Shown here one piece after another: positions 1-48,664 of a stretch of 64,000 nt of DNA. The notes beneath the pieces are model-generated. The model made no database searches. It had not been told where the DNA came from and saw nothing but the letters and a program-made list of their open reading frames with translations. The translations under genes were made by a program, and so were the position numbers. The stretch comes from Pseudomonadota bacterium (lineage in GTDB: Bacteria > Pseudomonadota > Gammaproteobacteria > Burkholderiales > Thiobacillaceae), in the NCBI GenBank assembly GCA_030691265.1, contig JAUYET010000014.1, forward strand, positions 1 through 64,000. Direction: 5' to 3'. The stretch's first letter is position 1. The number at the start of each line of letters is the position of its first letter.

Positions 1-21
1 GGTGGCCAGGCCCTTGGAGCG

Positions 22-1286
22 GTTTCAATCCGCGCCCGGCCTTTCGGCCGGGCGATGCGTTAAAAAATACTGGGCTTATGCGATGTTTAATAGTTTCAAT
101 CCGCGCCCGGCCTTTCGGCCGGGCGATGCACCCGTTCCAACATTTTCACCGGGTAAATCATGGCGTTTCAATCCGCGCCCGGCCTTTCGGCCGGGCGATG
201 CAGACTGACGGACAGAAGCTAAGCCTGACGGAAGACGTTTCAATCCGCGCCCGGCCTTTCGGCCGGGCGATGCGCTTTTGCGAGTCTCAGCCAGCGCCTT
301 GTTTATCCGTTTCAATCCGCGCCCGGCCTTTCGGCCGGGCGATGCATCATCAACAACACAACCGCGTAAAGGGACAAACATGTTTCAATCCGCGCCCGGC
401 CTTTCGGCCGGGCGATGCGCCATGCGGGTTCGACTCCCGCAGCGATCTAGTAGCGTTTCAATCCGCGCCCGGCCTTTCGGCCGGGCGATGCGCCGCCCGG
501 TAACAGGCTGCTGGATTTTAAATATGTTTCAATCCGCGCCCGGCCTTTCGGCCGGGCGATGCGACGATGAACCTGGCGGATCAAGGCTGGCGATTTGGTT
601 TCAATCCGCGCCCGGCCTTTCGGCCGGGCGATGCCCCGCGCAGGAAGGCGAGCTTCGCTATTTCCAGCCGTTTCAATCCGCGCCCGGCCTTTCGGCCGGG
701 CGATGCCCAGCTCGTGCCTTCCCTCGCAAGCAGCATCACCAGTTTCAATCCGCGCCCGGCCTTTCGGCCGGGCGATGCGCGAACGATGACCGCCTCTGCG
801 CTTGTTGATGCCGGTTTCAATCCGCGCCCGGCCTTTCGGCCGGGCGATGCAGCGAAGATTCGGTCAGGTGGCGCCAAGACCGAGTTGTTTCAATCCGCGC
901 CCGGCCTTTCGGCCGGGCGATGCAAGCGCGACGAAGCCGCAGCCGTGAGGCTCGAAGCCGTTTCAATCCGCGCCCGGCCTTTCGGCCGGGCGATGCTGGA
1001 GCAAGATCGACGGCTACCGGATGCGCAAGAGCGTTTCAATCCGCGCCCGGCCTTTCGGCCGGGCGATGCGCAATGCGGCATATCTCCCCTACAACCACAT
1101 GGATGTTTCAATCCGCGCCCGGCCTTTCGGCCGGGCGATGCTTCCACCGCCGTCCGTGTTCACGGCATCCTCAAGCGTTTCAATCCGCGCCCGGCCTTTC
1201 GGCCGGGCGATGCGCCATGCGGGTTCGACTCCCGCAGCGATCTAGTAGCGTTTCAATCCGCGCCCGGCCTTTCGGCCGGGCGATGC
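22..1286 (-). CRISPR. Type I-C CRISPR array, 18 repeats of 37 bp, 17 complete spacers of 34-36 bp (array continues beyond the window start)
   Basis: Repeat GTTTCAATCCGCGCCCGGCCTTTCGGCCGGGCGATGC recurs every ~72 bp. Its reverse complement ends ...GCGGATTGAAAC, as in I-C repeats, so transcription is on the minus strand with the leader at the right. Confidence 0.98.
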
Positions 1287-1464
1287 TCCACTTTCGCAAC
1301 TTGTTGTATTGAAAGCAGTGCGGGGCGAGCTTGCGCGAACCGGCTGCTGACGGCAAGCGCGAACGCCGATACACGTGCTTCATGCTTGTTCGAATTGTTA
1401 AAGAACAATGGGTTGTCGCCCGCGCGAAACCTTGGGCTTTTCATCGTTGCTTGGGGTTCGCGCG
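1287..1464 (-). promoter_or_regulatory. CRISPR leader region between array and cas2
   Basis: Non-coding interval between the cas-proximal repeat and the cas2 stop codon; position inferred from repeat orientation. Confidence 0.7.
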
Positions 1465-1755
1465 TCATACCAGCAGGGGGCCTTCGAAATCGATAGAGCG
1501 GAAGGTTCCGAACTGTTTGACCCGAACTTCCACCGGTTCGGTGATGCGATAGAAGCGCAGGTTGTCTTCTTTCTCGTCGATCTCCGCCAGCAGCGTGCGT
1601 TCCAGTTGCTCGAACTGCATTTCGTTGACCTGGCATTCGAAGACCGATTTCTGCACGCGCTGGCCCATGGCTTCGCAGGCTTTGGCGACGCGGCGCAGGC
1701 GTTTGCGGCCGGCGGGGGTTTCGGTGGAAACGTCGTAGGTGACGATGATCAGCAT
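1465..1755 (-). CDS. cas2: CRISPR-associated endonuclease Cas2 (type I-C)
   Basis: 96 aa, [11 protein letters not shown]...RVQKSVFEC; located between leader and cas1. Confidence 0.95.
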
Positions 1756-1758
1756 GGC

Positions 1759-2793
1759 TTACTTCGCAAAATACGGTAGATAGCCATCCATCTCGCCCCG
1801 GATGGCGCGGGCCATGAAACGCGCCTGGATCAGCGGCAGCAGGCCGATGGGCAGTTTGCTTTCCAGTAGCGGATGGGTGATTTCTTCCTGTTTGCGTTCT
1901 TGCCAGGCGGTGACGACGGCGCGGCGGCCTTTTTCGCCCAGCATGACCGCGCCGCCTTCGCGCAGGTCGAAATCCGCCGCCGATATCTGGCCCCGGTTGA
2001 TGAGGGTGAGGGCGAGGCGGTCGGCCAGGATCGAACGGAATTCTTCCTGCATATCCAGCGCCAACGCAGCGCGGCCGGGGCGCACGGCGTGGAGGAAGCC
2101 GAGTTGCGGGTCGAGGCCGACGGCTTCCAGCGCGGAGCGGCAATCGTTCATCAGCATGGCGTAGAGGAAGGAAATCAGCGCGTTGAAGCGGTCCAGCGGC
2201 GGCCGGCGGGTGCGGCCGTCGAGGGCGAACGATGCGCGCATCTGCGGTTTGACGATGAGATTGAGGGCGGCGAAGTAGCCGCGCGCGGCTTCGCCTTCGA
2301 CGCCGCGCAGTTCATCCAGATTTCCCGCCACCGCGGCCGCGCGCAATGAGGCGGCAAGATTGTCGGCGCTGCGGGTAAGTTGCGCGGCTTCCTCGGCATC
2401 GGCCGCTTCGCGTGCGCCGCGTTGCAAGGTGACGCGGCTGTTCTTCAGTTTGCCGGCGACGCAAGCGCGGGCATGTTCCAGCGTGGCAACCGGGTCGCCG
2501 GCGGCTTTGTGTTGCGCCTGGCGCAGCAGGATGTTGCCGGAAACCGGGCCTTCCATCCGCGCCTTGAAACGACCGTGTTCATCCAGCAACACCAGCGATT
2601 TGCCTTCGTCGGCCAGCCGATGCATCAGCGCGGGCGAGACCATGACGTTGCCGAAGGTGACCAGGCCAGACAGGTGATGCAGCGGCACTTGCAGGCGCTT
2701 TTCGTGATCCACGTCGATGCGCACGGTGGCGTTTTCCAGATGCGCGTAGGCCTGGGGCGTCATGACGTAGAGGGTGTTCTGAATGTTGTGCAT
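1759..2793 (-). CDS. cas1: CRISPR-associated endonuclease Cas1 (type I-C)
   Basis: 344 aa, Cas1 motifs (MNDCRSALEAVGLDPQLGFLH, LALDMQEEFR). Confidence 0.96.
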   Translation of the reverse strand: MHNIQNTLYVMTPQAYAHLENATVRIDVDHEKRLQVPLHHLSGLVTFGNVMVSPALMHRLADEGKSLVLLDEHGRFKARMEGPVSGNILLRQAQHKAAGDPVATLEHARACVAGKLKNSRVTLQRGAREAADAEEAAQLTRSADNLAASLRAAAVAGNLDELRGVEGEAARGYFAALNLIVKPQMRASFALDGRTRRPPLDRFNALISFLYAMLMNDCRSALEAVGLDPQLGFLHAVRPGRAALALDMQEEFRSILADRLALTLINRGQISAADFDLREGGAVMLGEKGRRAVVTAWQERKQEEITHPLLESKLPIGLLPLIQARFMARAIRGEMDGYLPYFAK

Positions 2794-2839: not shown

Positions 2840-3157
2840 ATGTCTACCCTGACTTTGCGTTTACCGGACGAACTGGACGAACGGCTGAACCGCCTCGCCG
2901 CATTGGAAGATAAAAGCCGTTCTGAACTGGCCAGGACTGCGCTTGATGGCTTTTTGCGTGAGCTGGAAAAAAAGCGCTTCATGGACGAAATGGTTGCCGC
3001 TGCCCGCGTTCTGGCGACCAACCCGGAAGCGCGCGCTGAAAGCATTGCCATCGCGGAAGAATTTCTGCCTCTGGAAAACGAAGCCCTCGATATTGCAGAA
3101 GGTAGAAAGCCTGGCGATCCATGGCCGGAAGAACTGGGCGACGTGTGGTGGAAATGA
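2840..3157 (+). CDS. Ribbon-helix-helix (CopG/MetJ-type) antitoxin
   Basis: MSTLTLRLPDELDERLNRLAALEDKSRSELARTALDGFL; RBS AAGGAG upstream; stop overlaps the toxin start (ATGATG). Confidence 0.85.
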   Translation: MSTLTLRLPDELDERLNRLAALEDKSRSELARTALDGFLRELEKKRFMDEMVAAARVLATNPEARAESIAIAEEFLPLENEALDIAEGRKPGDPWPEELGDVWWK

Positions 3158-3519
3158 TGCGACGCGGAGAAATCTGGCTGGCCCGCTTGAACCCGAATGT
3201 CGGCGCAGAAGCCGGCAAGATCAGACCGGTATTGGTCATGCTCAACAATGATTTGTTGGCCACCGGCATGAGCCCTGTGGTCTGTATTCCACTGACCAGC
3301 AAATTGTTCAAAGGCATGGAAGGACTGCGCTTCGCCATCGCACCGCGCGACAGGTTGCTCAAACGCTGCTACCTCATGCCGGAACAGACGCGCGCACTGG
3401 ATCTGAACCGCTTTGGCGACGGCCCACTCACGACACTGACAACGCTCGAAATGGCCGAGGTGGAACGTAGCCTGATAGGTGTTTTCGGCTTGTTCAATCA
3501 AGTCAATCCAGTTCACTGA
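3154..3519 (+). CDS. MazF/PemK-family mRNA interferase toxin
   Basis: MRRGEIWLARLNPNVGAEAGKIRPVLVMLNND...VVCIPLTS, typical MazF/PemK N-terminus; coupled to the RHH ORF. Confidence 0.88.
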   Translation: MMRRGEIWLARLNPNVGAEAGKIRPVLVMLNNDLLATGMSPVVCIPLTSKLFKGMEGLRFAIAPRDRLLKRCYLMPEQTRALDLNRFGDGPLTTLTTLEMAEVERSLIGVFGLFNQVNPVH

Positions 3520-4123
3520 ACAGGCCCTCCCTCAAGCGACTGATCAGGCTTAGGCCAGCCAGCGCCTCCGGCTGGCAAATCTCTTTCAATGAACACTCCC
3601 GGCAGCGCGCATCGTTCACCGGCGGCGGCAACCGACCGGAAGCCAGCATGGCGCGGATGGCATCGGCGGTTTCAATAACCAACTCGCGCAAAGCGGGCGT
3701 AATGGCGACATCGCGCCGGCGGTGGCTGCTGGCGTGGTAGATGGCGCCATGTGGCACGGGACGGCCGAGCATATCTTCCAGACACAGCGCCTGGGCGGCG
3801 AGCTGGATGTCGTCGTAAATTTTCTGGCGCTTCGGGCCGTGTTTGAACTCGACCGGAAACACCGTGCCATCGGGGTGAAACTCGACCAGATCGGCCTTGC
3901 CGATCAAGCCCAGCCGGTCCGACCAGAGCGGCAACGCGCGTTCCACCTTCACCCCGGCCTTCATCTCGTAGCCGGGCGTATCCACCAGGTGATGCACCGC
4001 CTGGCCGCGCGCCGTATGGAGGTTGTCGGCGAACGCCTGTTCCAGATGAATCAGCCCGCACTGGCGCGGGCAGTAGGCCCAGTGCTGGAGCGCGGCGAGG
4101 GGGATGGGGTCGGCTTCGTTCAT
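3503..4123 (-). CDS. cas4: CRISPR-associated exonuclease Cas4
   Basis: 206 aa; YCPRQCGLIHLEQ, VEFKHG, CRECSLKEIC (Fe-S cysteines). Confidence 0.95.
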   Translation of the reverse strand: MNEADPIPLAALQHWAYCPRQCGLIHLEQAFADNLHTARGQAVHHLVDTPGYEMKAGVKVERALPLWSDRLGLIGKADLVEFHPDGTVFPVEFKHGPKRQKIYDDIQLAAQALCLEDMLGRPVPHGAIYHASSHRRRDVAITPALRELVIETADAIRAMLASGRLPPPVNDARCRECSLKEICQPEALAGLSLISRLREGLFSELD

Positions 4124-4186
4124 CAGGATCGATGACTATGCTGGAGGCGCGCTAAACTACCCAGAACGTATCTGCAGGAGCATCTC

Positions 4187-4423
4187 ATGGCGACCACATT
4201 CGAAGAAGCCAAAGTACTGGCCATGCAACTTACCTCAGAGCAACGTGCTGACCTTGCCGATTTACTTTGGGCAAGTGCAACCCCTCGTGAAGAGGTGCAA
4301 GCGGCTTGGGATACCGAGATCGCCCGGCGCGTTGCTGAAATCGATGCCGGTACGGTCAAGTTGATCCCCGGTGAAGAGGTACTGGCGCGGATCGAGCAGA
4401 AACTCCGCAAAGCTGGCGCGTGA
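4187..4423 (+). CDS. Putative addiction module component (antitoxin)
   Basis: MATTFEEAKVLAMQLTSEQRADLADLLWAS...EIARRVAEIDAGTVKLIPGEEVLARI; matches the addiction-module-component pattern; overlaps the downstream toxin. Confidence 0.85.
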   Translation: MATTFEEAKVLAMQLTSEQRADLADLLWASATPREEVQAAWDTEIARRVAEIDAGTVKLIPGEEVLARIEQKLRKAGA

Positions 4424-4713
4424 AGCACATTTGGCACCCGTTGGCCGAGGTGGAATTCGATGAGGCGGTGGATTACTACCTCCTTCACGCCGGGCCTACC
4501 GTAAGCCGGAATTTTACGAGGGCACTTCACAGCGCCCTGGCGTTGCTGGCTGAGCATCCTGCCATAGGCGCACAAACGCAAAACCAGGCCCGTCGAACAC
4601 TTCTGCATGGCTTTCCCTTCGACTTGGTCTATCGGTTGCAAGCCGACAAGATCGTCATCATCGCCGTAGCCAATCAAAGCCGCCGTCCAGGGTATTGGGC
4701 CAGACGGCGATAG
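4420..4713 (+). CDS. RelE/ParE-family toxin
   Basis: IWHPLAEVEFDEAVDYYLLHAGPTVSRNFTRALHSALALLAEHPAIG...FPFDLVYRLQADKIVIIAVAN. Confidence 0.88.
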   Translation: MKHIWHPLAEVEFDEAVDYYLLHAGPTVSRNFTRALHSALALLAEHPAIGAQTQNQARRTLLHGFPFDLVYRLQADKIVIIAVANQSRRPGYWARRR

Positions 4714-4723
4714 GCACATATTT

Positions 4724-4966
4724 TTACCCCAGAAGCCTTTTCAACAAGGCTTCACGAGTCAAGCCATGATGCGCCGCCACGCTGTCCAGAATCGCCGCCA
4801 AGGTGCCTATCCGCAACGGATCATGGTTGGGAATGGTGATGTGATGTTCGCCATGAGCTTGGCTGGTCAGGCGGATATGGCTCCCGGTTTGGCGCGTTTC
4901 CGCATAACCGAACCGACTTAGCCGCTTGATCAAATCCGCGCCGAAAAGATCGCGCGGAATCCTCAT
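4724..4966 (-). CDS. hicA: HicA-family toxin
   Basis: 80 aa; FGADLIKRLSRFGYAETRQTGSHIRLT...HHITIPNHDPLRIGTLAAIL. Confidence 0.88.
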   Translation of the reverse strand: MRIPRDLFGADLIKRLSRFGYAETRQTGSHIRLTSQAHGEHHITIPNHDPLRIGTLAAILDSVAAHHGLTREALLKRLLG

Positions 4967-5169
4967 GCCGCCAGCACTTCTTCACGAGTGATGTGCAAGC
5001 GAATAAGGCTGGGCCGCTGGCCCTCGTCGAAGTGGCAATGCACGGCATCGCGGATCTGCGTGTGCAAATCGTTGATGTTGTCCGCCTCGGTAAAAACATC
5101 GGCACCCATAGCGCGAGCGATAAAACCGCCCTCGGGGGCTTCTTCGACCAGGAAGTGGATTTCGGTCAT
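4963..5169 (-). CDS. HicB-like antitoxin (DUF1902-like)
   Basis: MTEIHFLVEEAPEGGFIARAMGADVFTEADNINDLHTQIRDAV; RBS AAGGAG; starts 14 bp after the cas7 stop; ATGA overlap with hicA. Confidence 0.8.
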   Translation of the reverse strand: MTEIHFLVEEAPEGGFIARAMGADVFTEADNINDLHTQIRDAVHCHFDEGQRPSLIRLHITREEVLAA

Positions 5170-5182
5170 GGTGCAGGGCTCC

Positions 5183-6031
5183 TTATGGGCAAAGATTTCG
5201 GATTTCGACGCCGGGAAAGGCTTCGAGTTTGCCATCTGGCGGGGCGATGACTTTGTAGTCGGAGAAGTCGCGCGGAGGCTTTGTTTTATCTACCAACTCG
5301 GGGCGGCGAATGAGTTCGAATAGTTTGTGGGCGGGGGCGTTGCCCTTCTTATTCTCGTGGGTAAAGACATATAGCCCGCGCACATTCATTTCGCCACGGG
5401 CGGCGGAACGGTCGAACTCGAATAGGTTCTGTAGCGCCTCCCAAAGCGCTTCCATATCTTCTTCAACCACCCCGGTTTTCTCTGCCAGGTAGGGGTTGAA
5501 ATAGCCGTGGGCGCGATAGAGTCCATAGGGAACGATGCCTTTTCGTGGCCCAAGCCCCATAGGGTCAGCATCATTTGCATGTGCCTGTCGAGAGATGGCC
5601 ACATCCAATGTATAGAGCGGGTCAATGCTGCGGCCAAAGGTGATTTGGACAGGCCCTCGCACTTGTCCAGCATTAAGCTTTCCTGTGGTCAAAACGGCAC
5701 CAAACATGCGGATGTCGTAATAGCGAGCGCACATTTCCAGGCGCACATCATCATTGGGTGCTTGTGCCTCTTGGATACCTCTGGCTACACCGGCTTCTTT
5801 GATAAGCGTGTTCAATGCGACCTTACTCTGGATGAAGATGGGCATATCCCGCGTCTGTTGCAGGTAGTCACGCACCTTGCGTTTCAGTGCGACATCCGTC
5901 ACCAAGCCATTCATGGTCTGAGGATCAACACGGGGCAGATTCCCAGCGTCTGGGTCACCGTTGGGATTGCCGCTCTTGACATCGAATAGCAGGACGAATT
6001 CGTGACGCTTGGTTGGGTCGATGTGGCTCAT
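5183..6031 (-). CDS. cas7: Type I-C Cascade subunit Cas7 (Csd2)
   Basis: 282 aa; RHEFVLLFDVKSGNPNGDPDAGNLPRVDPQT. Confidence 0.96.
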   Translation of the reverse strand: MSHIDPTKRHEFVLLFDVKSGNPNGDPDAGNLPRVDPQTMNGLVTDVALKRKVRDYLQQTRDMPIFIQSKVALNTLIKEAGVARGIQEAQAPNDDVRLEMCARYYDIRMFGAVLTTGKLNAGQVRGPVQITFGRSIDPLYTLDVAISRQAHANDADPMGLGPRKGIVPYGLYRAHGYFNPYLAEKTGVVEEDMEALWEALQNLFEFDRSAARGEMNVRGLYVFTHENKKGNAPAHKLFELIRRPELVDKTKPPRDFSDYKVIAPPDGKLEAFPGVEIRNLCP

Positions 6032-7866
6032 TGCTGATCTCCTTCAGTCTGTTTGTTCTTGACGGGGCGGCCAGCCCGGAATTTGGCGCGCTGGTGATAA
6101 AAGCCCAGGCCAAATTCAGCCTGTTGGGCAAGAGTGAGAATGTCGGGGAATCCGCCTACCTCATCCAGTTTAGTCATGACGTTCTCAACCAGAACGTTGA
6201 GCTCCTTGCCAGCATCCGGAAGGTGAGCCGTGGCCGCCAGTCGAATCAGACCGCCAAAGTTGACTCCTGGCGCCGTTGAGGTCGAACCATAAAAACGGTT
6301 GACGATGGTCGTATCTAACCGACTTTTGTGCTTGATGTAGTGCGATACCTGTTGGGCCTCCTCGAGGATCGCCAGCAGCGTGCCGCATAAATAGGCGGGG
6401 CTGCGATTATCTGGATCGTGTTCGCTCATTGCATCTACCTCCTTGGTTCCGAAATACAGGACGAGTTTGAAAAGGCTGGCGAGGGCATGCTGTCGCCAGG
6501 CCTCTTTGGGGTCTTGCAGGGTATTGGGGTTGCGGAAAGCATTGACTGCCGCCGCCAGCAGACCAGCCGGGGGCGGATGACCAAGATAGGCGGTGCGTAA
6601 TAGCCCTCGCGTGAAATTGGGATTCTTGGACTCGCTTGCCTGGAGCAGTGCAGCGATGGAGAACGGTCGTGAGGCATCACCCCACGGGGTGACGATGCGG
6701 GTGCTTTCCAGGAAAACACTCAGTCGGCCCTTGATCTTTTCCAGAGAGTCGGCAATCCACTCTCGTAGCGCAATCCGACCGACATTTGGGGATAGGACCG
6801 CCAGATAGAATCCGTAATCATCAAGTCTCAAAGCTGCGTCTTTGGGTACCCAAGGAAGCTTGAGCAAGTCGGCGAGTTGCGAGAGTGTGGCCTGGGGTGC
6901 CACATCCTTGCTATGGACCTCGGTCAGAATCGTGCCCAGCCTGGCGTCGAGGTCATCCAGCTTTATTTCCATCTCACCCACCATGACCGGCGCTGGGGCT
7001 TTCAGCCAGAACAAGGCGAACTGGTTGGCAAGGCTGTCGCGTTTGTCTTTGTCATAGGTCAGGGTCTTCCTATGCCGCTCGGACTGGCTCAGATAGTTAA
7101 ATGCCCGTGAAGCAGTGTCGCCACAGGTGAAGCAGAGACCGAGGTGGGCTTTCTTGAAGTTGCCGGCGCCAGACTGGAAAGAAGTGAAGGCATCTGCGTT
7201 CAATGAATGAAGTGGTGTTACGCCGGCCAACTTGACACCAAGAGGTATTTTTCCAATCAAGGGAAGATCGTTTCCGCCGCATGTGGCGCACTGGCCATTC
7301 ACTATCCGTTTGCTCTTTTTCTCCCCAGGAGCGCAGCGGGCTTGCATCACTTCGATCCAATAGGCCTTTGCCAACTCATGCTCGAATAGATGCTGTCCTG
7401 CGAGCGGACCCTCTTCTGGCTTAAAGGAAACCCAGTCCTTACTCAGAATTTCCCCAATGCGTGAATCTGTCGAGATGTCTGGTCGGTCGAGCGCGCTCAT
7501 TAACCAGCCAAGTGCTTCCCGTAAAGAAGGGTCTGTCAGGCCATCCCAGGCGAGAAAATCCTTAATCAGATTTTTGAACCGCTGGTGCTTGTCTCCCGCA
7601 CGCTTGTCTTCACCTCCGCCATTCGTTTTTTGAATACCAAGGGCATACCCTGCTTCGTCCGCGAGGAGGTGAGCCTCCATATCTGAAGTTCGACCACCAT
7701 AAGGCCGAGGAATGGACTGCTCTGTTCCGACTAGACATGCTCGGTCAGGCCAAAGAGCTACGTACCATTTAATTGGCTCGCCATACTCATAGAAACCGGC
7801 GGGTGGCAACTTGCCTTGTTGTTCAAGTTCTCTCCCAAGCCTGACTAACTCACTAAACATGACCAC
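6028..7866 (-). CDS. cas8c: Type I-C Cascade large subunit Cas8c (Csd1)
   Basis: 612 aa; Csd1-like with CATCGG and CFTCGD cysteine pairs; between cas5 and cas7. Confidence 0.94.
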   Translation of the reverse strand: MVMFSELVRLGRELEQQGKLPPAGFYEYGEPIKWYVALWPDRACLVGTEQSIPRPYGGRTSDMEAHLLADEAGYALGIQKTNGGGEDKRAGDKHQRFKNLIKDFLAWDGLTDPSLREALGWLMSALDRPDISTDSRIGEILSKDWVSFKPEEGPLAGQHLFEHELAKAYWIEVMQARCAPGEKKSKRIVNGQCATCGGNDLPLIGKIPLGVKLAGVTPLHSLNADAFTSFQSGAGNFKKAHLGLCFTCGDTASRAFNYLSQSERHRKTLTYDKDKRDSLANQFALFWLKAPAPVMVGEMEIKLDDLDARLGTILTEVHSKDVAPQATLSQLADLLKLPWVPKDAALRLDDYGFYLAVLSPNVGRIALREWIADSLEKIKGRLSVFLESTRIVTPWGDASRPFSIAALLQASESKNPNFTRGLLRTAYLGHPPPAGLLAAAVNAFRNPNTLQDPKEAWRQHALASLFKLVLYFGTKEVDAMSEHDPDNRSPAYLCGTLLAILEEAQQVSHYIKHKSRLDTTIVNRFYGSTSTAPGVNFGGLIRLAATAHLPDAGKELNVLVENVMTKLDEVGGFPDILTLAQQAEFGLGFYHQRAKFRAGRPVKNKQTEGDQQ

Positions 7867-8542
7867 CCTCCAAGCGGTAAAGCGCCCCGTATTTCTCGGG
7901 AGGCACTTCTAGCCATCCTTCCTTTACTGTTGCATCGAAGAACAACGCCTGTGCATACCCCTTTGCCGGCTCATTCCGTTTCGGGCGTTTGAATTCCATC
8001 TCGATACGGCTGGCATCCTCGACGAACGCAATATCGAACAACATGGAGCCGACAGGCAGATCAAGTGGCGGCGGGATTTCACCGTTGGCAGGCTCGAAGG
8101 CCGCAGCAAATTCGCGTGTACCCAGATAGGGCGTGTGGTGGCACTGGCCTTTTTCGGCCTTGCGGTTGAACTGGTCGAGGTATTTCCCTATGGGCTCAGT
8201 GGCGTGGGGGCGGAGTACCGCATCGGCCTCGATCAGGTACTCGACCTCCTTGAGGATGAGGCTGGAGCGCTGTTGTCGCTTGTCTTCAATAAAAATGGGG
8301 TTATCACCCTGACGATCTTTGAGTTCGTTGCGCAGGATGACAGTCTGCGATCCTAGCTTGAGGATGCCGATACGACGGATTTCATAGCGGAATTCAGGTT
8401 TCCAGAAAACCGCTTCCAGCACGCCTCGCGCAGCGCTGGGAGTGATTACCGGGTAGGACACCCGTTCCACCTTGAATTCAGGCCGGGAAAAGCAGGCGTA
8501 ATCGCCCCAAACCCTGAGTCGCACCTTGCCAGTTTGCTGCAT
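7853..8542 (-). CDS. cas5: Type I-C Cas5 (Cas5d/Cas5c)
   Basis: 229 aa; VRLRVWGDYACFSRPEFKVERVSYPVITPSAARGVLEAVFWKPEF. Confidence 0.95.
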   Translation of the reverse strand: MQQTGKVRLRVWGDYACFSRPEFKVERVSYPVITPSAARGVLEAVFWKPEFRYEIRRIGILKLGSQTVILRNELKDRQGDNPIFIEDKRQQRSSLILKEVEYLIEADAVLRPHATEPIGKYLDQFNRKAEKGQCHHTPYLGTREFAAAFEPANGEIPPPLDLPVGSMLFDIAFVEDASRIEMEFKRPKRNEPAKGYAQALFFDATVKEGWLEVPPEKYGALYRLEGGHV

Positions 8543-47957: not shown

Positions 47958-47966
47958 GGCAACTTG
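47958..47966. repeat. Direct repeat / target-site duplication copy (GGCAACTTG)
   Basis: Identical to 10645-10653. Confidence 0.85.
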
Positions 47967-48050
47967 AAGCAAATGCTCGTCAAGCAAGTGCCACTGGATC
48001 GAACCTTTAGGCGGTGTGTGTGCATAGATGGGGCGACCCTGGTTCGTCAT
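47958..48050 (-). pseudogene. cas3: cas3, 5' portion (31 codons), separated from the rest by the prophage
   Basis: MTNQGRPIYAHTPPKGSIQWHLLDEHLLQVA, then prophage sequence RGSD*; joins QVAGRASKFARVF of the 3' portion in frame. Confidence 0.93.
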
Positions 48051-48664
48051 GCCTTCTCTCCATTCACCGGATTAACCCCCGCCAGCACTGCCCCCACCCC
48101 ATACCCCGCCGGCACCCACTCGCGATATTCCGGCAGTTCCAGAAGCAGCCGGGCGATGGCCCAATCCCAGGTTTCCTTGTTGAAATCGTGGCGCATGAAT
48201 CCGAAGAAACTTGTGTCCGCTTCGCCCTTGGCTTCGCGTTCCTGCCATTTGGCATAGTCACGCAGCAGACCGCTGACCCGATCCAGGGCGCGTTGCCGGG
48301 TGGTCAGCGCTTGATAGTGCGCGCGAGCGTGGCGTTGGAAGGCTTCCGCCTGGCGTTCGGGGGATTGCCACAGTTTCGCCATGACATCTGCTGCGTTGCG
48401 CGCTTCGGCTTCGTCGCTGGCGACGTAGGCATCGAGAAAACAGCCTTCGATCAGGAGCAGGACGATCCATTCGGTCGGGCAGGCGAGATCGCTCCAGTCC
48501 TGCTTGTGGTCTTCGATGCAGGTCTGCACACCTCGCGGCGCGGTGGTTTCGTATTCGACGAAATCACCCCGCCGGTAGTCACCGAGCATGCGGGCGAATT
48601 GCTTGCTCTGGACGGCAAGGCGCCTGCCTTGATCCTGGATGTGGAAGGTGTCGAACATGCCCAT
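48047..48664 (-). CDS. Protein of unknown function, overlapping the cas3 start by 4 nt
   Basis: 205 aa from MGMFDTFHIQDQGRRLAVQSKQFARML; RBS AGGAG; TGA stop overlaps the cas3 ATG. Confidence 0.8.
   Translation of the reverse strand: MGMFDTFHIQDQGRRLAVQSKQFARMLGDYRRGDFVEYETTAPRGVQTCIEDHKQDWSDLACPTEWIVLLLIEGCFLDAYVASDEAEARNAADVMAKLWQSPERQAEAFQRHARAHYQALTTRQRALDRVSGLLRDYAKWQEREAKGEADTSFFGFMRHDFNKETWDWAIARLLLELPEYREWVPAGYGVGAVLAGVNPVNGEKA

Follow-up and report, generated by a model that had tools for sequence, protein, structure and literature searches.

A type I-C CRISPR-cas operon of a Thiobacillaceae bacterium carries three toxin-antitoxin (TA) modules between its cas genes. The operon lies in contig JAUYET010000014.1 of the Pseudomonadota bacterium assembly GCA_030691265.1, a 58%-complete metagenome-assembled genome, of which we analysed positions 1 to 64,000 (hereafter the window). 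All three are predicted to be bona fide type II TA modules, and they occupy two recurrent slots, one at the boundary between effector and adaptation genes (J1, which separates cas4 from the last of the effector genes) and one at the cas4/cas1 boundary (J2). Comparison with related loci shows the modules to be intact, selected and fixed in place, repeatedly replaced by unrelated types, and kept with the adaptation genes during exchange of the effector genes. We tentatively favor reading them as self-maintaining addiction modules with a stabilizing effect on the adaptation module, and put the chances of this at a little below even.

Three TA modules within one cas operon

The genes from cas2 to cas5c are arranged as follows.

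1465-1755, minus strand: cas2 (open reading frame; orthologues found by tblastn)
1759-2793, minus strand: cas1 (Pfam, 3e-95), with an ATG start and without a Shine-Dalgarno sequence
2794-2839: 46-bp divergent region common to cas1 and rhhA, holding the conserved element CGTATCGTAATACAAA adjoining the cas1 ATG (cas1 strand)
2840-3157, plus strand: rhhA, RHH (CopG-type) antitoxin in J2 (Pfam RHH_1, 2e-7)
3121-3519, plus strand: MazF/PemK toxin in J2 (Pfam PemK_toxin, 1e-16; MazF structures matched)
3503-4123, minus strand: cas4 (TIGR00372, 3e-33)
4124-4186: 63-bp divergent region common to cas4 and the relB-like antitoxin gene
4187-4423, plus strand: RelB-like antitoxin in J1 (TIGR02574/PF09720, Unstab_antitox, 2e-15)
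4420-4713, plus strand: ParE-family toxin in J1 (Pfam ParE_toxin, 2e-11), overlapping the antitoxin gene by 4 bp
4724-4966, minus strand: HicA toxin in J1, in line with cas7 (Pfam, 2e-12)
4963-5169, minus strand: short HicB antitoxin in J1, 68 aa, with no DNA-binding domain and no Pfam match
5183-6031, minus strand: cas7 (Csd2; NCBIfam, 8e-89)
6028-7866, minus strand: cas8c (Csd1, divergent; 1e-63, 215.8 bits, just under the curated cut-off of 218.65)
7853-8542, minus strand: cas5c (NCBIfam, 2e-33)

A sequence-only reading of this DNA had placed three TA pairs inside the operon, and all six genes are found at the positions it gave, five of them with good family matches; its orientations, with the RHH/MazF and RelB-like/ParE pairs antisense to the cas genes and HicBA in line, are likewise borne out. 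The operon has the type I-C order cas3-cas5c-cas8c-cas7-cas4-cas1-cas2 with Csd1, Csd2 and Cas5c, and its cas3 is split. The J2 pair is organized as a MazEF-like type II module, with an RHH_1 antitoxin gene preceding a PemK_toxin gene that keeps the catalytic Arg and Thr. The true mazF start is probably at 3151, because relatives have a stop upstream of that position, and its 3′ end overlaps the 3′ end of cas4 by 17 bp. The antisense pair in J1 is ParDE/RelBE-like, with a ParE_toxin gene overlapping its upstream antitoxin gene, an assignment that does not distinguish between gyrase and the ribosome as target.

HicBA has the features of class 2, with hicB first, 68 codons long (class range 63–103) and lacking a DNA-binding domain, and with the HicA His in place. 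HicB is a member of a conserved family in which 22 positions are invariant, and its structural model (pLDDT 86) has the order strand-strand-strand-helix-strand, a partial RNase-H order. It resembles the HicB-like TTHA1013 (1wv8) and the antitoxin 3k6q, with Foldseek probabilities of 0.89 and 0.98 and with E-values that are weak because the protein is short. Sequence matches to HicB were spurious, and searches of PDB sequences with HicA and with ParE gave no matches. Only 13 nt separate the cas7 stop (5183) from the hicB start (5169), the hicB ribosome-binding site overlaps the cas7 stop (TAAGGAG), and HicBA is probably transcribed together with cas7.

Three TA pairs in one cas locus do not reflect chance placement, since 16 genomes of the same genus (55 Mb) have one gene of the three toxin families per ~260 kb, so that 0.04 toxins are expected per 10.7-kb locus against the three observed (P ~1e-5, Poisson background). 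We also considered whether the locus came from a plasmid or another mobile element and rejected this, as plasmid blastn matches are weak pieces of cas4 and the Cas4 relatives on plasmids are <60% identical.

Two slots flanking cas4 are repeatedly filled by TA genes

We collected 80 loci by a Cas4 scan, with one genome per species, mostly from Thiobacillaceae and other Betaproteobacteria, and the junction counts include the window. Because these loci are related by descent, their independence is exaggerated by raw counts and p-values, and parsimony counts are safer; TA genes were detected by similarity to a seed set, and rare types are therefore undercounted. J1 holds TA genes in 58 of the 73 cas7-cas4 junctions, and TA genes also precede cas4 in five of six loci where the preceding gene is cas3. 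J2 holds them in 10/74 loci, or 11/75 with L033, whose cas1 is fragmentary; RHH genes in J2 were found, besides the window, in L033, L035, L036, L062, L068, L083, and L104. Elsewhere in the operon, TA genes are present at one of 65 cas3-cas5 junctions and at none of the cas5-cas8 (0/69), cas8-cas7 (0/72), and cas1-cas2 (0/71) junctions, 0/212 in total. The excess at J2 over other junctions is strong by Fisher's test (2e-7, for loci that are not independent). J2 is not simply a wide gap, since when empty it is as tight as the uninvaded junctions, with a median gap of 1 nt. The nine most distant I-C loci (Cas4 <57% identity) have no TA genes in the slots. Lack of TA conservation at these junctions in related loci had been named as a possible refutation of the guarding role proposed for the modules, and the slots prove to be conserved and repeatedly refilled: the association of TA genes with the slots flanking cas4 is real and recurrent.

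At least six unrelated TA types use the slots. Occupants of J1 include HicBA (in line), RelB-like/ParE (antisense), DUF433/DUF5615, DUF2281/PIN, another PIN pair, and MNT/HEPN nucleotidyltransferase pairs, and J2 is occupied by RHH/MazF or Phd/PIN, both antisense. A class-wide sample adds RelE-type, MNT/HEPN-type, and YgiT-like zinc-finger genes at J1/J2 (labels from sequence, not profile-tested). Genes other than TA genes are also seen here, with RhuM-, BRO-, and KilA-N-like genes (labels from sequence) adjoining cas4 in the distant I-C loci L173, L175, L176, L177, and L181, and an aspartic-protease-like gene (clan AA) lying between cas4 and cas1 in L084 (8643-9023).

Turnover is extensive, with at least 23 switches of occupant type at J1 and at least eight at J2 by parsimony on the Cas4+Cas1 tree. 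Loci L068 (8608-11593) and L083 (8002-10337) both have RHH/MazF followed by a truncated 5′ end of cas1, then a further insertion, which is Phd/PIN in L068 and an MNT gene in L083, and then an intact cas1. An effect dedicated to one subtype was rejected, because the slots are filled in at least three I-C effector lineages, one of them with the order cas5-cas8-cas7-cas3. This divergent lineage, in L077, L085, and L091, is joined to the same cas4-cas1-cas2 clade.

TA genes stay with the adaptation genes

HicBA is inherited with cas4-cas1 and not with the exchangeable effector genes. HicBA distances correlate with those of Cas4+Cas1 at r 0.84, comparable with Cas4 versus Cas1 at r 0.82, whereas the correlation of HicBA with Cas7 is r 0.26. 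L034 has the nearest adaptation genes to those of the window (Cas4 93%, Cas1 96%, HicB 100%), yet its Cas7 is merely 47–54% identical.

The arrangement extends to a second subtype. Among MazF matches >100 bits, 6/11 are at J2 and 3/11 are beside a Cas4-Cas1 gene; the latter three are in type I-G loci, L223 and L224 (Csb1, Csb2, Cas4g/Cas1g) and L225 (Cas3g), with RHH/MazF placed head-to-head with a Cas4-Cas1 fusion-type gene. In L230, L233, and L234, a phd gene lies divergently upstream of Cas4-Cas1, two of these having a PIN-like partner downstream, and I-G markers are confirmed in L233. Because the same TA families are found at Cas4-Cas1 in type I-G, the arrangement goes with the adaptation genes and not with type I-C. 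A Uma2-like gene (label from sequence, not profile-tested) is antisense in the slot upstream of Cas4-Cas1 in two I-G-like loci, L231 (7075-7680) and L232 (7245-7850), and may represent a further type of occupant.

TA genes are conserved and toxins decay first

The TA genes are under purifying selection, with ratios of nonsynonymous to synonymous divergence (dN/dS) mostly of 0.02–0.2 for toxins and antitoxins, similar to those of cas4 and cas1; some distant ParE and MazF pairs reach 0.4–0.6, where synonymous sites are near saturation. The active-site H30 of HicA is kept in 32/32 sequences, and R35 and T59 of MazF are kept in 8/8. Toxin genes are broken in 5/30 loci for ParE and 1/32 for HicA, and the toxin is missing beside its antitoxin in about five more, whereas broken antitoxins number 0/33 for HicB, 0/8 for RHH, and 2/33 for the RelB-like family. 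Overall, 11 of ~67 toxins but only two of 74 antitoxins are broken or missing (p 0.007). Internal stops in the mazF frames of L033, L035, L036, and L068 lie upstream of the real start and were not counted as breaks. Decay of toxins before antitoxins is the order that would be expected if the toxins are active now or were recently, and lends indirect support to the predicted TA function.

Explanations for TA modules beside cas4

In the addiction reading, loss of a segment through a slot would end the antitoxin supply and leave the stable toxin behind. Single-step deletions that cut through the central part of the operon would then be penalized and the adaptation module stabilized, either as a side-effect or as a selected benefit. 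The RelB/ParE and RHH/MazF pairs would have their own promoters, shared head-to-head with cas4 and cas1, and an operator may be common to the antitoxins and the adaptation genes.

Relic loci bear on this reading in two ways. In L099 and L100, from two species of Tepidimonas, one deletion joins the 5′ end of cas3 to the 3′ end of cas7 and a second removes the cas4-cas1 boundary; the HicBA between them is intact, with one difference in 447 nt compared with 10 in the cas4 remnant (p 0.005). L226 (8524-9430) keeps a relB/parE pair next to a cas4 stub of 45 codons, and no cas1 was recognised in its vicinity. Retention of TA genes in these relics supports self-addiction, but loss of cas genes around intact TA pairs means that protection of the cas genes would be at best partial. 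The proposal in the sequence-only reading that the modules are a protein-based guard against loss of the locus is therefore plausible in part: it fits the placement, the purifying selection, and relic deletions that stop at the TA genes, and it sits poorly with relics that lose cas genes around them.

Several observations weigh against stabilization of the adaptation module. The relics L099, L100, and L226 keep their TA genes though the cas genes are lost; about a dozen I-C loci without TA genes look intact (including L071, L073, L090, L091, and the outgroup loci L103 and L105-L112); RelB/ParE correlates weakly with the adaptation genes (r 0.22), which suggests that this slot is often swapped in place; and only seven of 13 close HicA homologues are at cas4, the rest being at six unrelated sites.

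The last of these points, together with the relics, is what would be expected if the modules are selfish hitch-hikers, in which case gaps around cas4 tolerate insertion and recombine often, and the TA genes persist by addiction with no gain for CRISPR. We regard this as possible, although somewhat unlikely. At one of the unrelated sites (L120, 238-2172), outside cas loci, hicBA is inserted where a ROK-family-like gene ends, and the 3′ end of that gene is seemingly duplicated on the far side. Cassettes also move between loci, as rhhA-mazF is near-identical in L036 and L068 (synonymous divergence, dS, of 0.1) while cas4 has a dS of 0.6, and the RhuM-, BRO-, and KilA-N-like genes point to other mobile-type genes using the slots of distant relatives. 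Tolerance of insertion is insufficient by itself, however, given how tight the cas4-cas1 junction is when empty, and hitch-hiking does not readily account for the same families lying upstream of Cas4-Cas1 in another subtype. Close ParE homologues, moreover, are confined to cas4, with 20/20 matches >67 bits among 149 relatives adjoining cas4 (one of these a cas4 stub), and the filled slots of close relatives nearly always hold TA genes and not general cargo.

Regulatory coupling, which the sequence-only reading did not raise, has to be taken equally seriously, because the antisense pairs are head-to-head with cas4, cas1, or Cas4-Cas1. The antisense TA genes would here provide a stress-responsive promoter for the adaptation genes: degradation of the antitoxin (for example on infection) would free the shared operator and co-induce the toxin with cas4 or cas1-cas2, and spacer uptake would coincide with growth arrest. 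This is compatible with addiction, and we consider it rather unlikely as the explanation. The geometry of the antisense pairs is invariant: all 33 mapped RelB/ParE pairs are divergent from cas4 (usually with 41–70 bp between starts), all eight RHH/MazF pairs face an adaptation gene head-to-head, and so does Phd/PIN, both at J2 and where it lies upstream of Cas4-Cas1 in I-G loci; HicBA and the MNT/HEPN and VapBC types, by contrast, are in line in the slots and not divergent. When TA genes split cas4 from cas1, cas1 abuts the antitoxin control region; its start codon is then invariably ATG, not preceded by a Shine-Dalgarno sequence, with a median duplex energy of +0.6 compared with −6.0 kcal/mol in loci without TA at J2 (p 2e-6, for loci that are not independent). 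No such shift was clear at cas4 among relB-divergent, hicA in-line, and TA-free loci. The window, L033, L035, and L036 have identical copies of the element CGTATCGTAATACAAA adjoining the cas1 ATG; the element is recognisable in L062, L068, L083, and L104, and is kept despite synonymous divergence of around 1–2.

The operator is nevertheless putative, as a sigma-70 promoter scan found nothing above chance and no promoter consensus. In L068 and L083, the RHH/MazF module has kept a cas1 start for itself, which could be explained if the RHH/MazF promoter extends into it; the element has stayed with rhhA there while the intact cas1 is further off, and it may serve the TA genes alone. There is a precedent for coupling in Haloarcula hispanica, where the creTA region gives a promoter for downstream cas genes (PMC9458426). 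A broader proposal, that the TA genes are a dedicated layer of I-C and I-G adaptation in which spacer acquisition is controlled by the antitoxin, loss of the adaptation module is tied to toxicity, and unrelated TA families are interchangeable in the slot, is in our judgment unlikely.

In a CreTA-like guard, Cascade carrying an ectopic crRNA would repress the toxin. The position of the modules within the operon and the similarity to CreTA (PMC10097628, PMC9458426) suggest such a guard, but it is largely refuted and highly improbable, as the best repeat-like match outside the array is 22/37 (no better than shuffled sequence), spacers match TA promoters only over stretches of a length expected by chance, and both toxins and antitoxins are proteins.

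The CRISPR array and the interrupted cas3

The remaining features of the locus lie on both sides of the genes above.

1-1289, minus strand: CRISPR array with 18 exact 37-nt repeats and 17 complete spacers, running off the contig start
8551-10656, minus strand: 3′ part of cas3 (codons ~47 onward, at 10656-8554)
10654-47957: 37.3-kb prophage inside cas3
47958-48098, minus strand: 5′ (N-terminal) part of cas3

The disruption of cas3 in the sequence-only reading is confirmed, with the gene split by the prophage and its N-terminal part on the far side. Both prophage ends carry the 9-bp direct repeat GGCAACTTG, and a prophage D12 methyltransferase gene sits at the cas3 side. A guard of the kind proposed in that reading may protect against deletion but not against insertion. 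Spacers 6 and 17 of the array are identical (419-454 and 1214-1249).

Significance and relation to known systems

Two open questions are why costly CRISPR-Cas loci persist and why adaptation goes with growth arrest. Both become directly testable with a slot that lies beside the genes for spacer acquisition in two subtypes and is refilled repeatedly by unrelated protein TA pairs. The exchange of effector genes while the TA genes stay is a natural experiment. There is also a practical consequence: such loci will be broken up by annotation pipelines, and by searches for cas operons, that assume an uninterrupted run of cas genes.

We found no description of fixed TA slots flanking cas4 in the open-access literature, and a 2025 review of links between TA systems and CRISPR does not mention HicA, ParE, or MazF (PMC12737573). 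Makarova et al. 2006 (PMC1462988, Table 3; MCA0653 and MTH321) classed HicB as "loosely associated" with cas genes; hicB is in cas neighborhoods there too, but the association was uncertain, concerned two genomes, and came with no analysis of position, conservation, or partner. The class 2 HicBA systems (PMC10865869) share the order hicB-hicA, a small HicB without a DNA-binding domain, and the HicA active-site His with the pair described here, although that survey mentions CRISPR in passing and reports no hicBA within cas operons.

The CreTA systems (PMC9458426, PMC10097628, PMC8501985) are similar in having a TA unit inside a cas operon that could penalize loss of the locus. They differ in being RNA-only and repressed by Cascade via ectopic repeats, whereas the modules here have protein partners, no ectopic repeat, and slots flanking cas4. 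A parallel in protein TA pairs is in the Sulfolobales, where vapBC pairs are interspersed within cas cassettes, up to four per cassette, and have been suggested to help maintain CRISPR-Cas (PMC4390879); for that group, both the occurrence of such pairs among cas genes and their suggested role in CRISPR maintenance are thus already published. Those pairs are archaeal and of the VapBC type, with the cited example in a type III-D system, whereas the modules we describe occupy two fixed junctions in bacterial I-C (and I-G) loci, belong to many unrelated TA families, and have a measured turnover.

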